DNA of 33,600 nucleotides from Candidatus Poribacteria bacterium (GTDB lineage Bacteria; Poribacteria; WGA-4E; WGA-3G), in contig JAPPII010000001.1 of NCBI GenBank assembly GCA_028820845.1, forward strand, positions 1 to 33,600. Reading direction: 5' to 3'. Of this stretch, positions 4,411-12,457 are shown one piece after another. Position numbers and translations under genes: made by a program. Position 1 is the stretch's first letter; each line of letters opens with the position of its first letter. The notes below the pieces were generated by a model, which had not been told where the DNA came from, made no database searches, and saw only the letters and a list, made by a program, of their open reading frames with translations.

Positions 4411-5462
4411 AGGTTTATACAGTTCCGATGGCGTTCAAGGATCTCCGCCGGTGAAGCTGTACCAGTCGTTCCGATTTTGGTGACCGTAATTGAAGCCACC
4501 AGATTCCCGACATAAGCCGCCTCAATAGCTGCAGCACCTCCTCGTGAAGGGCGCAAACTACAAAGCGACGCAACAAGTCCAGCAGAAACACTGTCTCCCG
4601 CGCCAACCGGATCAATCTCACTATCAACAGGGATGCCTGGGATATGCGTAAATTTTCCTTCACAACAGACAAGAATACCGTTTTCGCCGAGAGTGACGTA
4701 TACCGTATTTTGGGTCTGCGCCGCGAGCGCGATGGCACACTGTTTCGCCATCGCGATGTCAACTTCGTGTCCGCGCCACCCCGGCTGAACAGCACGCTTT
4801 GCCTCAAACCGGTTCGGCTTAATGATCACATTCCGATACGCGCCAATCCGCGTCCGGGAGTCGGCGAAAAAAATCTTTTCAGGAAACGCCGCCGCCAGCT
4901 CACAGAGTGCTTCTCTCACTCGGTTGGTAATAACACCTAAATTTTCATGCGGCATCTGGTCTCCAACGATTATACCGTCAACAAGCGGAAGACAGGCTTT
5001 CAGGGCCTCAATAACTGCGGTCTCAACATCTTCTACCATTGGGGATTGGTTCTCAATATCGAACCGGGGTCCCTCTGTCTCCACGCCTTCATAACCGCGA
5101 TGTATCGGTTTGAGGTAGGTAGGCGTGACCAAATCCGGCACCTGTACCATAAAATCGGTCAAACACCCGTTCGCCTCTAAACGATTCAGCAGCGTTCCTC
5201 CAAATCCGTCCTCACCTATGACCCCAAGGGTGTAGACGTTACCCACACCCAACGCCTTCAGGTTATTTGTGACAGTCCCTGCTGCGCCGGGACTATAGCG
5301 TTGCGCAACGACCGGGTTGGTATGCCACGGTGTTTCCAGAGACAGCGTAGACTGCGTTTTATCTATGTGCCAGTAGGCATCAAGATAGAAATCTCCGATG
5401 ACAAGGATACGTTGTTGGTGAAATTGACTGAGAATAGTTTTCAGGCGCGCTTCGCTAATCAA
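4407..5462 (-). CDS. PfkB-family sugar kinase, RfaE1/HldE-kinase-like
   Basis: The protein has the PfkB fold signatures. ILVIGDFYLDAYWHID near the N-terminus resembles heptose-7-phosphate kinase. The substrate-site SPGAAGTVTNNLKALG follows, then IKPNRFE, and DPVGAGDSVSAGL near the C-terminus with the GAGD anion hole and catalytic Asp. No nucleotidyltransferase domain follows, so it is kinase only. RfaE1 phosphorylates heptose-7-phosphate for ADP-heptose and lipopolysaccharide core; other sugars are possible. Start: an ATG at 5483 exists, but TTG 5462 has GGAG 7 bases upstream and gives an 8-base overlap with the stop of res, so I prefer it (351 aa). It is followed by the overlapping nitroreductase gene. 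Confidence 0.82.
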   Translation of the reverse strand: MISEARLKTILSQFHQQRILVIGDFYLDAYWHIDKTQSTLSLETPWHTNPVVAQRYSPGAAGTVTNNLKALGVGNVYTLGVIGEDGFGGTLLNRLEANGCLTDFMVQVPDLVTPTYLKPIHRGYEGVETEGPRFDIENQSPMVEDVETAVIEALKACLPLVDGIIVGDQMPHENLGVITNRVREALCELAAAFPEKIFFADSRTRIGAYRNVIIKPNRFEAKRAVQPGWRGHEVDIAMAKQCAIALAAQTQNTVYVTLGENGILVCCEGKFTHIPGIPVDSEIDPVGAGDSVSAGLVASLCSLRPSRGGAAAIEAAYVGNLVASITVTKIGTTGTASPAEILERHRNCINL

Positions 5463-8088
5463 TGTATTTCTCCAAGGTCTCATTCACTGTTTCACGCCAA
5501 GAATCTTCAAATAGCATTCGGAAAGACATTGTTCTGTTATTAGGAGAGGTAATGTCCATTGTGCCGTGTGATGTAGCGTTTTGATAGGCTGTTTCCAACG
5601 CTTGAATGAGCTCCTGTTTATAGGTCGTGTCGCTATTGCCTTCAAGGTGTTGTCCTTTAGTCTCAAAGATACAGAGGCGTTGCGGTCCCGTTTGACTCCG
5701 TTGGAGACAAGCGATAAAATCTGGGTAGACGCGATCGCGTCGCCACCCTTGCAAGAAATATCCCTGCTTCGCAGCGATGCGGTGCCACCACTGAATCGCG
5801 TTCTGTTTGTCCAAGTAGAGCGCGAAATCTGTTTCTAAATTGTTGAATTCTGCTTCAAACACTTGTTCAAATAGGTTCAGCTGCAACGGATCCCCGTGTG
5901 GATGCGTCATCGGTCTTGCTTCAGGTGTAAGATTAACCATGAGAGTTTTTTCCATCTGGTAGTTTAACGCGGCATCTGCTTGTAGGTTAAACTGGATTTT
6001 CCCGTCTTCCAACTTCTCCCGAAAAACGGCTTCAGCGAGTTTGTCAATGCGATCGCGCAGATGGCGTTTCAAGTACTCGGAGAGATACAACCGATGTGTA
6101 TACAATGTTTCATCGTCAGTGCCTTCTTCACGGTAGGCAGCGAGCGTTGCCTTTACGATGCGTGCGGCGTGCCACGGGTTCGGCAGGACATCTCCCAATC
6201 GTCGCACGAAAAACGCTACCTCTAAGTTATGCGTTGCACTCGCTTGCAACTTTTTATTAATTACCGCTTCGTCTTGGAGGTGGATAGTGGCGCGAATTTC
6301 TTGGAGTTGTGCCTCCGCTCCTAAGTTGATAGGGGCTATCGCACCAAGTTGATGATAGTCAATTGCACTCAGGATGTCACGCTCATAATTGAGCTCTCGC
6401 CAGTTTCGTCCGTGTTTATGCAGGACGCGCGGCAGAAAGATGTCTGTATCACGGTATGCTTGCTTTCGTTTGATGGTTCGCTGAACATGCTCCGTACCCG
6501 GTCCTTCAACAAAATTGCCCAATCCTGTCAGCCCTTCTGCCTCTAATCCTTGCTTGACGTTTGCCACTGCATCTTTAACTTTCTGATTGTAACAGAAGAT
6601 ATAACAACTATCCAATTCAGGTTGGTTTGTAGCGCGGGCATAGGGTTGACGCATAACTCTGCCGATGAGCTGCGTCATTGCTGTTGCTGCGGTGGTGTTA
6701 TCAAGAAGCGCGAGCAGGTAAGCAAAGGGGCAATCCCACCCCTCTTTCAAGGCATCTTTGGTAATGATATAACGGACAGGGCAAAACGGACTCAGGAGGT
6801 CTATTCCCGAAAGCTCATCTTGTTCTGACGATTTCACTTTTACTTGTTCTGTCGGCACACCCAAAACGTCAATAAGTTCTTCGCGGGCATCTTCGGCGTG
6901 TACCCGGACCCCATCACGCTGGTTTTTGCCAGTGCGATCTACACGAATCACGGCGATCGGACGAATATAGCGGTTTTCTACTTGCTGGAACCATTTCGTC
7001 GTTTCCTCAAGTTTATCACGTTCTACCTTCGTCTGCGCGAGGGTATACTTCCAATCAGAATTCGGGAAATTTCGGAGTTGGATCGGGAGTTTAATCATTT
7101 CTTCGTCTTTAAGTGCAAGGCCGGAAATGTTGACGAGAATGTTACTGATGCCGAGTTTTGGGGTGGCAGAAAGTTCAAGGACAAAACGCGGATTGAGCCG
7201 ATTGACCGCCTCTACAAACTGCTCGTTATTTTTGGCGTTCCTACTCCCGTAAGCCTTGTGTGCTTCATCTAAAATCACGGTGGGACGCAGCAACTTCAGC
7301 ACATTAAAAAGACTCTGTTTGATGAGTCTGTCTGCTGGATTCACTGTAAGTCGAGGCTGTTGCGGTTGAGTGTCCGTTGCTGTTTCAAGGTCAGGATGCT
7401 TTTCCGATAATGCCTGATGTTCTCGGACATCATCTTCAACGGGAAAAAAGGAGGCATAACCGCCAGTATCACGGAAAATCTTAAGGAATTCCTTGTTTCG
7501 GTTTCGGTTTGCGGCGGGGAGCATGAGGAGCATGACACAGAGGTAGTTCTCAACATCGTGCTTCGTGAATCTATCGTCTTTCTGAAGCAGCTTGACGCGG
7601 TCACCGGAAGCGCGGTCCAAAATCTGCCGATACGGATGCTCTCTGTTCCGAAAAGCGTCATAAGTTTGTGTATAGATGGCTTTCGTGGGGACGAGCCACA
7701 GCACAAACCCGGTGCCGAGTTTCAAGCGACGCACCGCGTCTACACCTAACAGGGTTTTTCCACCCCCCGTTGGCACTTTTAGGCAGACATGCGGAATCGG
7801 TTCACCGGCGGCACTTTCACGCGAAATGTGTTTTGGAATCAGTTCTTGCCCTTGTGCGTCTGTAACGCTCGGTAGGGCAGCTGCTTTTCGTAAATTTTCC
7901 CATGCAATGTGCGGATAGTCCTCCGCTCGCGCTACTAAATTCGCTGCTTGCTCCATCAAGAAGTCTGGAACATCATCTGATGCGAGATATGCGGCGGCTT
8001 TATCTGCTTGCTGGTGGGCTTCCTCTAATGCTTGCAGATAGCGATCCAGTGTATCTAATGCTTGTTGCTGATAGTCTTTGAGTTCCAT
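5455..8088 (-). CDS. res: Type III restriction enzyme, Res subunit
   Basis: The 877-aa protein is an SF2 helicase-nuclease. Walker A is PTGGGKT (106-112), motif II ILDEAH (272-277), motif III SAT (308-310) and motif VI QLIGRVMRQP (473-482). The C-terminal nuclease is of PD-(D/E)xK type: VYPDFIA (Asp790) and IFETKG (Glu809, Lys811). In type III systems Res joins Mod to cut DNA when two unmodified sites are met, using ATP hydrolysis. The partner mod lies upstream at 8617-10362, but a HicBA pair sits between them, which is not the usual contiguous order. All motifs are intact and no frameshift is seen. The length fits the family. The ATG at 8088 starts 37 bases after hicA. Confidence 0.93.
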   Translation of the reverse strand: MELKDYQQQALDTLDRYLQALEEAHQQADKAAAYLASDDVPDFLMEQAANLVARAEDYPHIAWENLRKAAALPSVTDAQGQELIPKHISRESAAGEPIPHVCLKVPTGGGKTLLGVDAVRRLKLGTGFVLWLVPTKAIYTQTYDAFRNREHPYRQILDRASGDRVKLLQKDDRFTKHDVENYLCVMLLMLPAANRNRNKEFLKIFRDTGGYASFFPVEDDVREHQALSEKHPDLETATDTQPQQPRLTVNPADRLIKQSLFNVLKLLRPTVILDEAHKAYGSRNAKNNEQFVEAVNRLNPRFVLELSATPKLGISNILVNISGLALKDEEMIKLPIQLRNFPNSDWKYTLAQTKVERDKLEETTKWFQQVENRYIRPIAVIRVDRTGKNQRDGVRVHAEDAREELIDVLGVPTEQVKVKSSEQDELSGIDLLSPFCPVRYIITKDALKEGWDCPFAYLLALLDNTTAATAMTQLIGRVMRQPYARATNQPELDSCYIFCYNQKVKDAVANVKQGLEAEGLTGLGNFVEGPGTEHVQRTIKRKQAYRDTDIFLPRVLHKHGRNWRELNYERDILSAIDYHQLGAIAPINLGAEAQLQEIRATIHLQDEAVINKKLQASATHNLEVAFFVRRLGDVLPNPWHAARIVKATLAAYREEGTDDETLYTHRLYLSEYLKRHLRDRIDKLAEAVFREKLEDGKIQFNLQADAALNYQMEKTLMVNLTPEARPMTHPHGDPLQLNLFEQVFEAEFNNLETDFALYLDKQNAIQWWHRIAAKQGYFLQGWRRDRVYPDFIACLQRSQTGPQRLCIFETKGQHLEGNSDTTYKQELIQALETAYQNATSHGTMDITSPNNRTMSFRMLFEDSWRETVNETLEKYID

Positions 8089-8124: not shown

Positions 8125-8316
8125 CTATGGAGGTGGAATTTTTAAATCTTTACAGATTTTCTCAACAAGCCACTTACCAATCTCATTATGGCGAGGCACA
8201 GCAGTTGAGACTTGAACACCTATATGCCTCTTACCCCACTGTGAGTGCCGGCCGCCTTCTCGAATAAAATAACAACCATGCCTCCTGAGATGCCTAACCA
8301 ACGTCCTTCGTTTCAT
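8125..8316 (-). CDS. hicA: HicA-type mRNA interferase toxin
   Basis: The 63-aa protein matches the small dsRBD-like HicA/YcfA family. It has MKRRTLVRHLRRHGCYFIREG, then GGRHS with the catalytic His at about residue 24 (most members have GSHH), and PRHNEIGKWLVEKICKDLKIP at the end. HicA degrades mRNA until HicB binds it. Here the gene follows hicB with a 4-base ATGA overlap, so toxin translation depends on antitoxin translation. It is placed just upstream of res, inside a type III restriction-modification operon. The catalytic His is present, so the toxin looks intact. Confidence 0.88.
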   Translation of the reverse strand: MKRRTLVRHLRRHGCYFIREGGRHSQWGKRHIGVQVSTAVPRHNEIGKWLVEKICKDLKIPPP

Positions 8317-8525
8317 ATCTGGATAGTGACTTCCTCATGCTCAACTTTTGCAGCCTTGATAGCCTCTTTACGATTGTATTCTACCATTTCCAGGAGCGTA
8401 ATTCGTAGTGCTTCAAGTAATTCGTCTTTAGTCCGTTCTTGGCCATTCACACCGGGAATTTCTTGTATCCATCCGATCCACCAGCCTTCGTCCTGTTGAA
8501 TAACTGCGGTATAGTTTTGTGTCAT
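8313..8525 (-). CDS. hicB: HicB-type antitoxin, minimal form
   Basis: The 70-aa protein has the HicB partial RNase H-like fold. It starts MTQNYTAVIQQDEGWWIGWIQ, followed by EIPGVNGQERTKDELLEALRITL, the usual antitoxin core. It ends at VTIQI with no ribbon-helix-helix or HTH DNA-binding part, unlike long HicB proteins of about 130 aa. It should neutralise the adjacent HicA by binding its active site. The gene has a strong AAGGAGG ribosome-binding site and its own promoter at 8560-8588, so it is transcribed apart from mod. Without a DNA-binding domain, classical autorepression is doubtful. Confidence 0.88.
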   Translation of the reverse strand: MTQNYTAVIQQDEGWWIGWIQEIPGVNGQERTKDELLEALRITLLEMVEYNRKEAIKAAKVEHEEVTIQI

Positions 8526-8616: not shown

Positions 8617-10362
8617 TTACGCCTCCGCAATGCGATGGATGCTGTAAGGCAGCTGGCAGAACGTGATTCCCATATCCGTTAGTTCTTTCTGACTGACGAA
8701 TTTCTGTGGTGCATAGACGTAAGCCTTTTTACCGGTTTCTTGGCACGTTTTGGCGATCTGCTCGGCACGCGCCCCATCTAATGCCGACGCATTGCTCTCC
8801 AGAAATTCCAATGATCGTTCATAGATAAGATAGAAACGGATGTTGTCGGTTTCGCCAAAGCAGTAATCTTTCCGCTTTTCAATGGAAGTCAACGCGCTAC
8901 CGGTGGCAGTATAAGCGATATAGTGTGCTAAAGTTTCGTAAGAGGGGAGCGTCTCACCCGTGAGCATACCTTCCTCGTCAATCGGTTCACCGAGGGTGCA
9001 GTAGGTAAAGGAGCCGCCGAGGCCGTTTCTGAGGGTTTCATCTTTGACATTTTCAACTCCGTTAATGACGCGGCGGACGCGTTCTGCAGTGATGGTATCT
9101 GCGTAGTCTTCACATTCAACAAGAATAAACTTTCGGTTACCTCCATCTTCTTTATTGAGAGATAGGACAGCATGGGCGGTTGTGCCGCTACCAGCAAAAG
9201 AGTCAAGGATAATGTCGTTAGGACCAGTCGCCGCCTCAAAAATTGATTTTAATATTCCTTCATCTTTAGGAAATGGGAAAACCTTACCAAGTATCCTATT
9301 TAATCGTTGTGTTGCCCCTTGGGCATCTTTGTAAAAGACGCTATAGGGTGTCTCATACTCAGTTTCCCTTAGGTAATGTTTGCGTCTGGGCACAGTTTTT
9401 TCGTTACTCCCAAAGAGGATACGATCATCTGCGATAAGTTCTTTCATTCTTTCTTGGGTGTAACGCCATCCGTTTATGGGAACAGTACATGGCTTGTTCG
9501 TAATCGGGTGAATTACTGGATACCTGTCTTTTCCGCTAACTGGCGGAGAAGTACTGGTAGAACTATAAGGTCCCCGGTTATCCACATAGCGGTAATCTCT
9601 ATGTCTCTTAGCGGGGTCAACATCAGATAATCCACTAAACCATGCTGCCAATTCTTTCTCAATCTTTGGAAAGTCTTGTCCGTGCTTTCGTCCAAGTTCT
9701 ATATGTTTCTTGTAGACATCATCAAGTCCCTGTTTCCGCACGCGCCATGAGGTTCGCTGTTCATTCAGATACTCATGATTTTTGAGGTAGCACAGGATAT
9801 AATCGTGTGAATTGGAAAAAAGCCGAGAGTTGTTTTTTATTCGAGCTGCCCAGATAAATTGTCCGACAAAATTTCCCTTCGGAAAAATATCTTTTGCATC
9901 AAAAATGTCATCCATGATCGCGCGCAGGCGATGCACTTCATTATCATCAATAGAGATGAAAATAGCACCATCCTCCGTTAGCAACTCCCGCAATAAATGG
10001 AGCCGAGGCCACATCATGCACAACCATTTATCGTGACGCTCTAAATCCTCAACGTCAATAGGACTGTGCTTCTCTAACCACGCTTGCATCATCGGACTGT
10101 TGACATTATCATTGTAAACCCAACCTTCGTTGCCGGTGTTGTAGGGGGGATCGATGTAGATACACTTGACTTTGCCAGCATATTTCGGGAGGAGTGCTTT
10201 TAGGGCATGCAGGTTGTCGCCGTGGATGATGAGATTATCGTTGAGTGATGGATCCTTGTCATTGGTGAGGGATTTGTCTGCGTCTGTCTGTAAGGTGCAG
10301 ATGGGGACGGTGAGGTGGTGTCCGTAGATGAATTGTTTACCTTTGAAGTCGAGCGTGGGCAT
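8617..10362 (-). CDS. mod: Type III DNA methyltransferase, Mod subunit
   Basis: The 581-aa protein is an adenine-N6 DNA methyltransferase of the beta class. The catalytic motif DPPYNTG (71-77) precedes the SAM-binding motif FAGSGTT (389-395), the order typical of Mod. The stretch between them (about 180-340) is the variable part expected to hold the target-recognition domain, so the recognition site cannot be read. It methylates the host's sites and guides Res. AAGGA lies about 8 bases before the ATG. It is 42 bases downstream of a TIR-like gene and 91 bases upstream of hicB. Both motifs are intact. Confidence 0.94.
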   Translation of the reverse strand: MPTLDFKGKQFIYGHHLTVPICTLQTDADKSLTNDKDPSLNDNLIIHGDNLHALKALLPKYAGKVKCIYIDPPYNTGNEGWVYNDNVNSPMMQAWLEKHSPIDVEDLERHDKWLCMMWPRLHLLRELLTEDGAIFISIDDNEVHRLRAIMDDIFDAKDIFPKGNFVGQFIWAARIKNNSRLFSNSHDYILCYLKNHEYLNEQRTSWRVRKQGLDDVYKKHIELGRKHGQDFPKIEKELAAWFSGLSDVDPAKRHRDYRYVDNRGPYSSTSTSPPVSGKDRYPVIHPITNKPCTVPINGWRYTQERMKELIADDRILFGSNEKTVPRRKHYLRETEYETPYSVFYKDAQGATQRLNRILGKVFPFPKDEGILKSIFEAATGPNDIILDSFAGSGTTAHAVLSLNKEDGGNRKFILVECEDYADTITAERVRRVINGVENVKDETLRNGLGGSFTYCTLGEPIDEEGMLTGETLPSYETLAHYIAYTATGSALTSIEKRKDYCFGETDNIRFYLIYERSLEFLESNASALDGARAEQIAKTCQETGKKAYVYAPQKFVSQKELTDMGITFCQLPYSIHRIAEA

Positions 10363-11334: not shown

Positions 11335-11835
11335 TTAGATAGCGACTTCTTCATGATAATGAAGAGGCTCCTCTACAGGTCTTTCCTGTGATTCAACGGG
11401 TAGCCCTGCGTTCATCATTTCTTTCCCGATTTTCAATTGCCAATTGTTGTCACTATCCATAGGGATATAAATTAGACCAGAGATGTCCGATAGTAACTCA
11501 ACGCCTCCTTTATACAAAGCACACACGCGTTCACTACCTAAGCTCCCAAAGAAGTAGCCGAGTTCCAAAATCACATTCTGGCGTGCTCTGAGTCTGCGTT
11601 CTCCTGTTGCCTTTGAAGATCCAACGTCATCGGGAGTTAACAAGACAATTGCGAAACCCGCTTCGTCTGCATGTTCTTCAAACTTATCAATAATTGTTTG
11701 TCCCTTGCTGGGTTGTTCGTCAAGAACGATTGGCTTTAAACCTAATTTCTTGATGAACTCAGCAAGAGTTGTTGCAGCTTCTTTGTCGTCATGTATATAG
11801 GAAATAAACACTGTCCGCCGATTTTTTTCATCCAT
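11335..11835 (-). CDS. TIR-like (PF10137-type) protein, middle paralogue with TIR-style box 1
   Basis: The 166-aa protein is a single TIR-like domain. The body matches its neighbour at 10405-11259 nearly word for word (LDEQPSKGQTIIDKFEEHA, FAIVLLTPDDVG, RARQNVILELGYF with Glu91). Its start differs. The first strand is VFISYIHDDKEAA (9-21) instead of IFIVHGH, which resembles box 1 of classical TIR domains (FISY-S/x-H). Its C-terminus runs about 13 residues past that of the paralogues, through a palindrome at 11360-11377. It has a strong GGAGGAG ribosome-binding site and its own promoter at 11908-11936. The family predicts NAD+ hydrolysis or nucleotide sensing; activity of this variant is uncertain. 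Confidence 0.82.
   Translation of the reverse strand: MDEKNRRTVFISYIHDDKEAATTLAEFIKKLGLKPIVLDEQPSKGQTIIDKFEEHADEAGFAIVLLTPDDVGSSKATGERRLRARQNVILELGYFFGSLGSERVCALYKGGVELLSDISGLIYIPMDSDNNWQLKIGKEMMNAGLPVESQERPVEEPLHYHEEVAI
11360..11377. repeat. Palindrome in the 3' end of the middle TIR-like gene
   Basis: The 18-nt palindrome (AGAGG / CCTCT core) resembles 10384-10401. It is coding here, in the extra C-terminal residues of the middle paralogue. This suggests the reading frame has run into a former 3' untranslated repeat. Confidence 0.4.
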
Positions 11836-11907
11836 GATTCTCCTCCATTCTTATGCCGATGCGGCACGCGGAGACACTTATTCATATAAGGTGAGAACAC
11901 TGTATTG

Positions 11908-11995: not shown

Positions 11996-12457
11996 TTATA
12001 AAAGTTTGTTTGCATCGAAAGATAGTCCCGCCTGTTTCATTTCTCTTGCTAACTTCAACTGCCATGCACCAAGCTCATCCATAAGCACATAAACAACGCC
12101 GTAAATATCTGAGGGGAGCTCAACGCCTTCTTTATAGAGGGCACAAACACCTTTACGCCCTAACGCATGGAAAAAATATCCGAGTTCAAAGATAACATTT
12201 TGCCGTGCTCTGAGTTTGAGATCGTTCTTCTTTTGAATAGGAGCACCAACATCGTCGGGGGTCATCAGGACAATTGCAAAGTTGGCATTTCTGGCGTATC
12301 TTTCAAATTTTTCAATGATCGTCAAACCTTCACTGGGCTGTTCATCAAGTATGACTGCCTCTAAGTCAAGTCTTTGGACAAACCTTGCGGTGGCTATTTT
12401 GGCTACTTCGTCATGTCCGTGTACAATAAACACTTTTTGCGACACTTTTTCGTCCAT
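11996..12457 (-). CDS. TIR-like (PF10137-type) protein, first paralogue
   Basis: The 153-aa protein is the TIR-like domain alone: VFIVHGHDEVAK (9-20), LDEQPSEGLTIIEKFERYA, FAIVLMTPDDVG, RARQNVIFELGYF (Glu91 candidate catalytic) and a C-terminal DANKLL. It is the most family-typical of the three copies and more diverged from the other two than they are from each other. The family contains NAD+-degrading anti-phage effectors, usually turned on by a cyclic nucleotide made by a neighbouring enzyme. No such enzyme is visible in this window. GAGGAG serves as ribosome-binding site and the promoter lies at 12485-12513. A 160-bp gap separates it from the second copy. Confidence 0.86.
   Translation of the reverse strand: MDEKVSQKVFIVHGHDEVAKIATARFVQRLDLEAVILDEQPSEGLTIIEKFERYARNANFAIVLMTPDDVGAPIQKKNDLKLRARQNVIFELGYFFHALGRKGVCALYKEGVELPSDIYGVVYVLMDELGAWQLKLAREMKQAGLSFDANKLL

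Follow-up and report, generated by a model that had tools for sequence, protein, structure and literature searches.

An unusual first strand marks an inherited lineage of defence-type TIRs in Poribacteria

The middle of three tandem TIR genes (TIR2) in a 33,600-nucleotide stretch of a Candidatus Poribacteria genome (GCA_028820845.1, contig JAPPII010000001.1, positions 1 to 33,600; hereafter the window) encodes an odd first strand that is real and more than a chance variant. Judged from sequence comparison, this strand marks an inherited branch of defence-type TIRs in sponge-associated Poribacteria. We tentatively read TIR2 as a partner subunit that has diverged within a set of tandem TIR effectors adjoining a type III restriction-modification system, with a probability of roughly 0.45. 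The features of the region are shown in Table 1.

Table 1 Positions of TIR2, its sequence elements, and neighbouring genes in the window.
Feature	Position	Strand	Basis or remark
TIR2, PF10137-type TIR protein with FISY box 1, 166 aa	11335..11835	-	ORF, profile match, clade tree
TIR2 box 1 FISYIHD, codons TTT ATT TCC TAT ATA CAT GAC	11788..11808	-	sequence
Shine-Dalgarno GGAGGAG just upstream of TIR2	11840..11846	-	sequence
TIR2 alphaC motif RARQNVILE: R85, N87, catalytic-position E91	11563..11589	-	mapped on SfSTING R78, N80, E84
TIR2 DD-loop D117 codon (SfSTING D110 equivalent)	11485..11487	-	kept in window copy
TIR1, sister PF10137 TIR, box FIVHGHDE, all pocket residues intact	11996..12457	-	profile and alignment
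TIR3, sister PF10137 TIR, box FIVHGHNE, pocket intact, ~130 extra N-terminal residues	10405..11259	-	
mod, type III DNA methyltransferase	8617..10362	-	profile match
HicB-like antitoxin candidate, UPF0150-like, weak match	8313..8525	-	profile match
HicA toxin	8125..8316	-	profile match
res, type III restriction enzyme	5455..8088	-	profile match

The TIR2 protein starts with MDEKNRRTVFISYIHDDKEAATTL..., and its TIR domain begins at residue 9. As the original prediction had it, the first strand reads FISYIHDD in TIR2 and FIVHGH[DN] in the sisters; the first loop is one residue longer (HDDKEA versus HDE-AA). FISY lies at the same strand position as in the classical TIR box 1 (TIR_2 profile; FISYRR in SARM1), and Y568 of SARM1 corresponds to the Tyr of the TIR2 box. 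Mutants of Y568 lose at least 100-fold in efficiency and multimerise less (PMC8266388), and F565–R570 of SARM1 were assigned a known or predicted role in catalysis or substrate binding (PMC9381744). The proposed likeness to classical TIRs is borne out by TIR_2 (PF13676, cut-off 28 bits), a very broad and non-diagnostic profile (PMC13142454), which TIR2 matches over residues 9–82 with 38.5 bits while the sisters stay under the cut-off with 13.0 and 14.6 bits. The classical TIR profile PF01582 and the ThsB TIR profile PF08937 gave no match to TIR2 up to an E-value of 10.

Unlike a classical TIR, the rest of the TIR2 domain belongs to PF10137, and the box appears to have arisen inside that family. 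The three window TIRs score 123, 130, and 133 bits against the PF10137 profile (curated cut-off, 24.7 bits), TIR2 having 123.2 bits, and membership is also seen in the alphaC Glu at the catalytic position and the Arg and Asn preceding it. AlphaFold monomer models of TIR2 (pLDDT 82.9, pTM 0.78) and TIR1 (pLDDT 83.9, pTM 0.82) both have SfSTING (7un8) as the best match, with Z scores of 15.6 and 14.9, respectively, and the predicted overall fold is unchanged in TIR2. The TIR2 model also contains the CC-loop beta-hairpin extension (predicted strands 70–73 and 80–83, then a helix at 86–99) named as a feature of PF10137 CAP12-PCTIR proteins (PMC13142454).

Among known systems, TIR2 resembles Cap12/TIR-STING (PF10137; SfSTING structures 7un8 and 9lmq) in its fold, the R-x-N...E helix motif, the DD-loop Asp, and the modelled CC-loop strands. 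However, it is a TIR of 166 residues only, lacks the STING domain, and has FISYI where those proteins have FIGSS; its score with the NCBIfam Cap12 model is 40.5 bits, below the cut-off of 450. No CD-NTase was found among the identified co-directional neighbours (two TIRs, mod, HicB-like, HicA, and res). PycTIR of Pycsar (8jsj) likewise belongs to PF10137 and shares the alphaC motif, whereas the stand-alone TIR2 is devoid of a cyclic-nucleotide-binding domain.

The original prediction described the body of TIR2 as nearly identical to that of TIR3. Such identity holds for a 30-residue block, LDEQPSKGQTIIDKFEEHA[DE]EAGFAIVLLT, and the alphaC motif RARQNVILELGYF, but over the whole domain TIR2 is 50% identical to TIR3 and 54% to TIR1. 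Recent gene conversion between TIR2 and TIR3 was rejected as an explanation for their common core: third codon positions there are 50–65% identical, against 50% overall, so the similarity reflects conservation at the protein level.

MAGs of Candidatus Poribacteria are the nearest relatives that carry a name. PF10137 is present in 44 of the 85 genomes sampled from the phylum Poribacteria. In a tree of the extracted domains, TIR2 falls into a clade of 14 rows with support of 97/94, whose members usually occupy the middle position behind TIR1 and which spans two genera. Box 1 starts with FIS[YH], LISY, or FITY in 11 of the 14 and with FIVHG, YIVHGP, or FIAHG in the other three. When box 1 and the pocket columns were removed, a single branch still separated the same 14 rows from the others (support 93/95, recovered in 94% of bootstrap trees). 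FIS[YH]/FITY starts were confined to this orthologous middle-gene clade among the 85 genomes. FISY is a lineage property because the TIR2-type genes form one orthologous clade. One ORF in the sample fuses a TIR2-type domain to a FIGHG-type TIR (L038:6001-6942, the same as L068:7750-8610), with two PF10137 stretches in 314 aa.

FISY had been described as replacing the family's own motif, and it is indeed an uncommon start in PF10137. In 806 genomes from four further phylum samples, FIS[YH] starts none of the 50 intact PF10137 domains (those with the alphaC Arg, Asn, and Glu kept), and FISY as a general PF10137 feature was rejected. These 50 start with xx[VI]HG (30), F[IL][GA]S (14), F[IV][GA]HG (3), or others (3). 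The FIS[YH] starts seen in these genomes belong only to domains without the Arg/Asn/Glu set, which are either marginal matches or, in L177, members of a divergent group.

The codons record how the box may have arisen. Ser is TCC in every FIS member, with GCC (Ala) in L081 and ACC (Thr) in L068, and the Tyr codon TAT occurs alongside His CAT in the clade. Codon comparison gives the single-base steps GTN>GCC>TCC and CAT>TAT, and the intermediates FIAHGHD (L081), FISHGHD, and FISYGHD survive. These observations favour point substitution within PF10137 over import of a classical-TIR segment. A swap of the first strand from a classical TIR by recombination could draw on the TIR_2 match and on a natural TIR1/TIR2 chimera directly upstream of mod (L112:8407-8829), in which the first third is TIR1-like and the remainder TIR2-like, so that recombination inside TIR arrays does occur. 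Nevertheless, residues 18–37, which directly follow the box, share 43% identity with TIR1 but 23% with the one classical TIR used for comparison, the PF10137 alignment begins at profile position 1–2 throughout the clade, and the codon intermediates count against segment transfer as the source of the box; the swap is largely refuted and very improbable. The suggestion that the strand had been exchanged is accordingly not upheld: the orthologous clade inherits its box. A viral source was also rejected, with one IMG/VR relative only (40% identity, FIVHGRD).

The NAD pocket of TIR-STING comprises F6, W33, F37, L47, S10, R78, N80, and the catalytic E84, and D110 of SfSTING is contributed by the opposite dimer mate (PMC9402430). 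PDB alignments related SfSTING E84, R78, N80, and D110 to TIR2 E91, R85, N87, and D117, while F6 and S10 were placed on F10 and I14 by the register of the first strand. On this TIR-STING map (PMC9402430), the segment borders the NAD pocket, in agreement with the earlier placement of the change in the nucleotide-binding region. HG-type paralogues keep R85, N87, E91, and D117 almost without exception. In the clade, 4 of the 14 rows that can be scored retain D117, compared with 48 of 49 among the other HG-type rows (Fisher 8e-8; such values are descriptive only because the rows are related), and R85 is retained in 9/15 versus 49/49. N87 is kept in 12 of 15 clade rows and the catalytic Glu in all 15. 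Most orthologues have Tyr, Gly, or Asn in place of the DD-loop Asp, and no one substitute is consistently used. From these alignments, the predicted NAD pocket of the clade looks as if it is being remodelled while that of the sister gene is kept intact.

Within the clade, R85, N87, E91, and D117 are kept together in the window copy alone; relative to its sisters, its pocket differs by V12S, H13Y, G14I, and P115L. The claim that only the first loop is affected and the catalytic core stays is right for this copy but not for its orthologues, in which the DD-loop Asp and the alphaC Arg and Asn change. Since all four residues are kept, TIR2 of the window may simply be an active NADase. An enzyme that is fully active and makes a different product or binds a different ligand through its FISY box (e.g., by cyclisation or with another nucleotide), the array then having two activities, competes seriously with our reading in the case of the window copy, because all mapped catalytic residues are retained, though on balance we consider it unlikely. 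It would account for the invariance of the catalytic Glu, for the retention in the window copy of all mapped pocket residues outside box 1, for the purifying selection on the gene, and for residue 14, which lies at the position of the SfSTING S10 phosphodiester contact and is Ile in TIR2 and Gly in all sisters. However, the varied loss of the DD-loop Asp in most orthologues is more like relaxation than a new specificity, and no new conserved polar residue was seen in the clade beyond Ser12.

TIR2 is under purifying selection, though two array copies are broken. The median dN/dS over the same genome pairs is 0.21 for TIR2 and 0.17 for TIR1, and TIR2 is slightly above TIR1 in 36 of 45 pairs. This difference, the broken array members (L063 and L106), and the loss of pocket residues in different ways would all be expected if TIR2 were a redundant duplicate being lost by neutral drift, with a box 1 devoid of functional meaning. 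Such drift is improbable, since dN/dS is ~0.2 (over saturated divergence), E91 and the fold residues are constant, and the clade has been kept across two genera.

Our preferred reading of TIR2 as a partner subunit draws on its company. Altered members occur in 16 of the 22 arrays that have at least two such domains, and each of these 16 also has an intact copy. The altered copies that stand singly number five, among them some near contig ends and the L112 chimera. A second altered group, the VGG clade, has the catalytic Glu replaced by Arg or Gln in 4 of 5 members, and L115 is a lone further altered copy. Because the FIS clade, the VGG clade, and L115 stand apart in the tree, alteration of a partner probably arose about three times. 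The genes at L085:7617-8045, L096:7864-8286, L097:8630-9052, and L100:9241-9666, which have a VLIVGG-type or FIVCGG start and Arg or Gln at the catalytic Glu position, are candidate pseudo-TIRs next to intact sisters. Besides the complete residue set of the window copy, several observations count against the partner reading: TIR2-type genes also occur alone with TIR1 undetected (L078, at a contig end, L081, and L084); the catalytic Glu is kept throughout the TIR2 clade, unlike in a plain pseudoenzyme; some array members are broken (L063 and L106); and TIR1-TIR2 pairs are found without mod/res (L073).

Downstream of the three TIR genes and co-directional with them are mod, the HicB-like gene, hicA, and res, and TIR-mod-(hicB)-res layouts are found elsewhere in Poribacteria, e.g., at L074, L101, and L104. 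The HicA/HicB-like pair (window 8125-8525) sits between the type III mod and res, and HicB-like copies occupy the same mod/res position in relatives. A literature search found nothing matching PF10137 TIRs beside type III systems with the terms tried. In PADLOC, the best match for all three TIRs is PDC-S35 (198–235 bits), a candidate single-gene defence family, for which the literature search found no paper giving the name. TIR3 matches its full length (5–262), whereas the N-terminal half is missing from TIR1 and TIR2, TIR2 covering only 115–259 of 264; the PDC-S35 entry does not include tandem arrays that combine intact and altered TIRs. Residues 1–130 of TIR3 have no Pfam match over the cut-off, yet are covered by PDC-S35. 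The same genome holds a fourth, divergent PF10137 TIR (G000:C9:1144-1476, L095) with the box FIGHGGS, which belongs to a separate clade and has Asn at the DD-loop position.

We envisage a tandem set of Cap12/Pycsar-type (PF10137) TIRs, often upstream of type III restriction-modification genes in Poribacteria, in which TIR2 descends from a FIVHGHD-type duplicate whose first strand changed to FIS[YH] by point substitutions. Across the clade, the rest of the predicted NAD pocket, namely the DD-loop Asp and the alphaC Arg/Asn, has been relaxed or remodelled, whereas the catalytic Glu and the fold persist. The TIRs may assemble as mixed dimers or filaments, like PF10137 effectors and other immune NADases, with the complete NADase site on TIR1 (and TIR3) and NAD as the presumed substrate. 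TIR2 could then tune or gate the TIR1/TIR3 site. In TIR-STING, the opposite mate supplies the Asp that completes the site, and an Asp-less TIR2 would therefore act on TIR1: in a mixed dimer it would cripple its partner's site, whereas TIR1 could still complete the Glu site of TIR2. The set may also be functionally linked with the restriction system. By analogy only, the sirtuin pair FAM118A/FAM118B consists of paralogous immune-type NAD enzymes that are active mainly in combination, both members being needed for NAD processing (PMC12700824); these have a SIR2 fold, come from a different organism, and are not homologous to TIR2.

A wider generalisation, which we regard as doubtful, is that Poribacteria carry hetero-TIR effector sets of an intact Cap12-type TIR and a pocket-altered sister, that the altered partner arose about three times (FIS, VGG, and L115) and completes or blocks the composite active site of its neighbour, and that the set backs up the type III restriction-modification system next to it. 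TIR NADases are common to bacterial, plant, and animal immunity, and mutual regulation of paralogous TIRs is little known in bacteria. The natural series of pairs, each an intact TIR with a progressively altered one, together with the living box-1 intermediates and the chimera, forms a ready test set for how a composite TIR active site depends on box 1 and on the DD-loop Asp.
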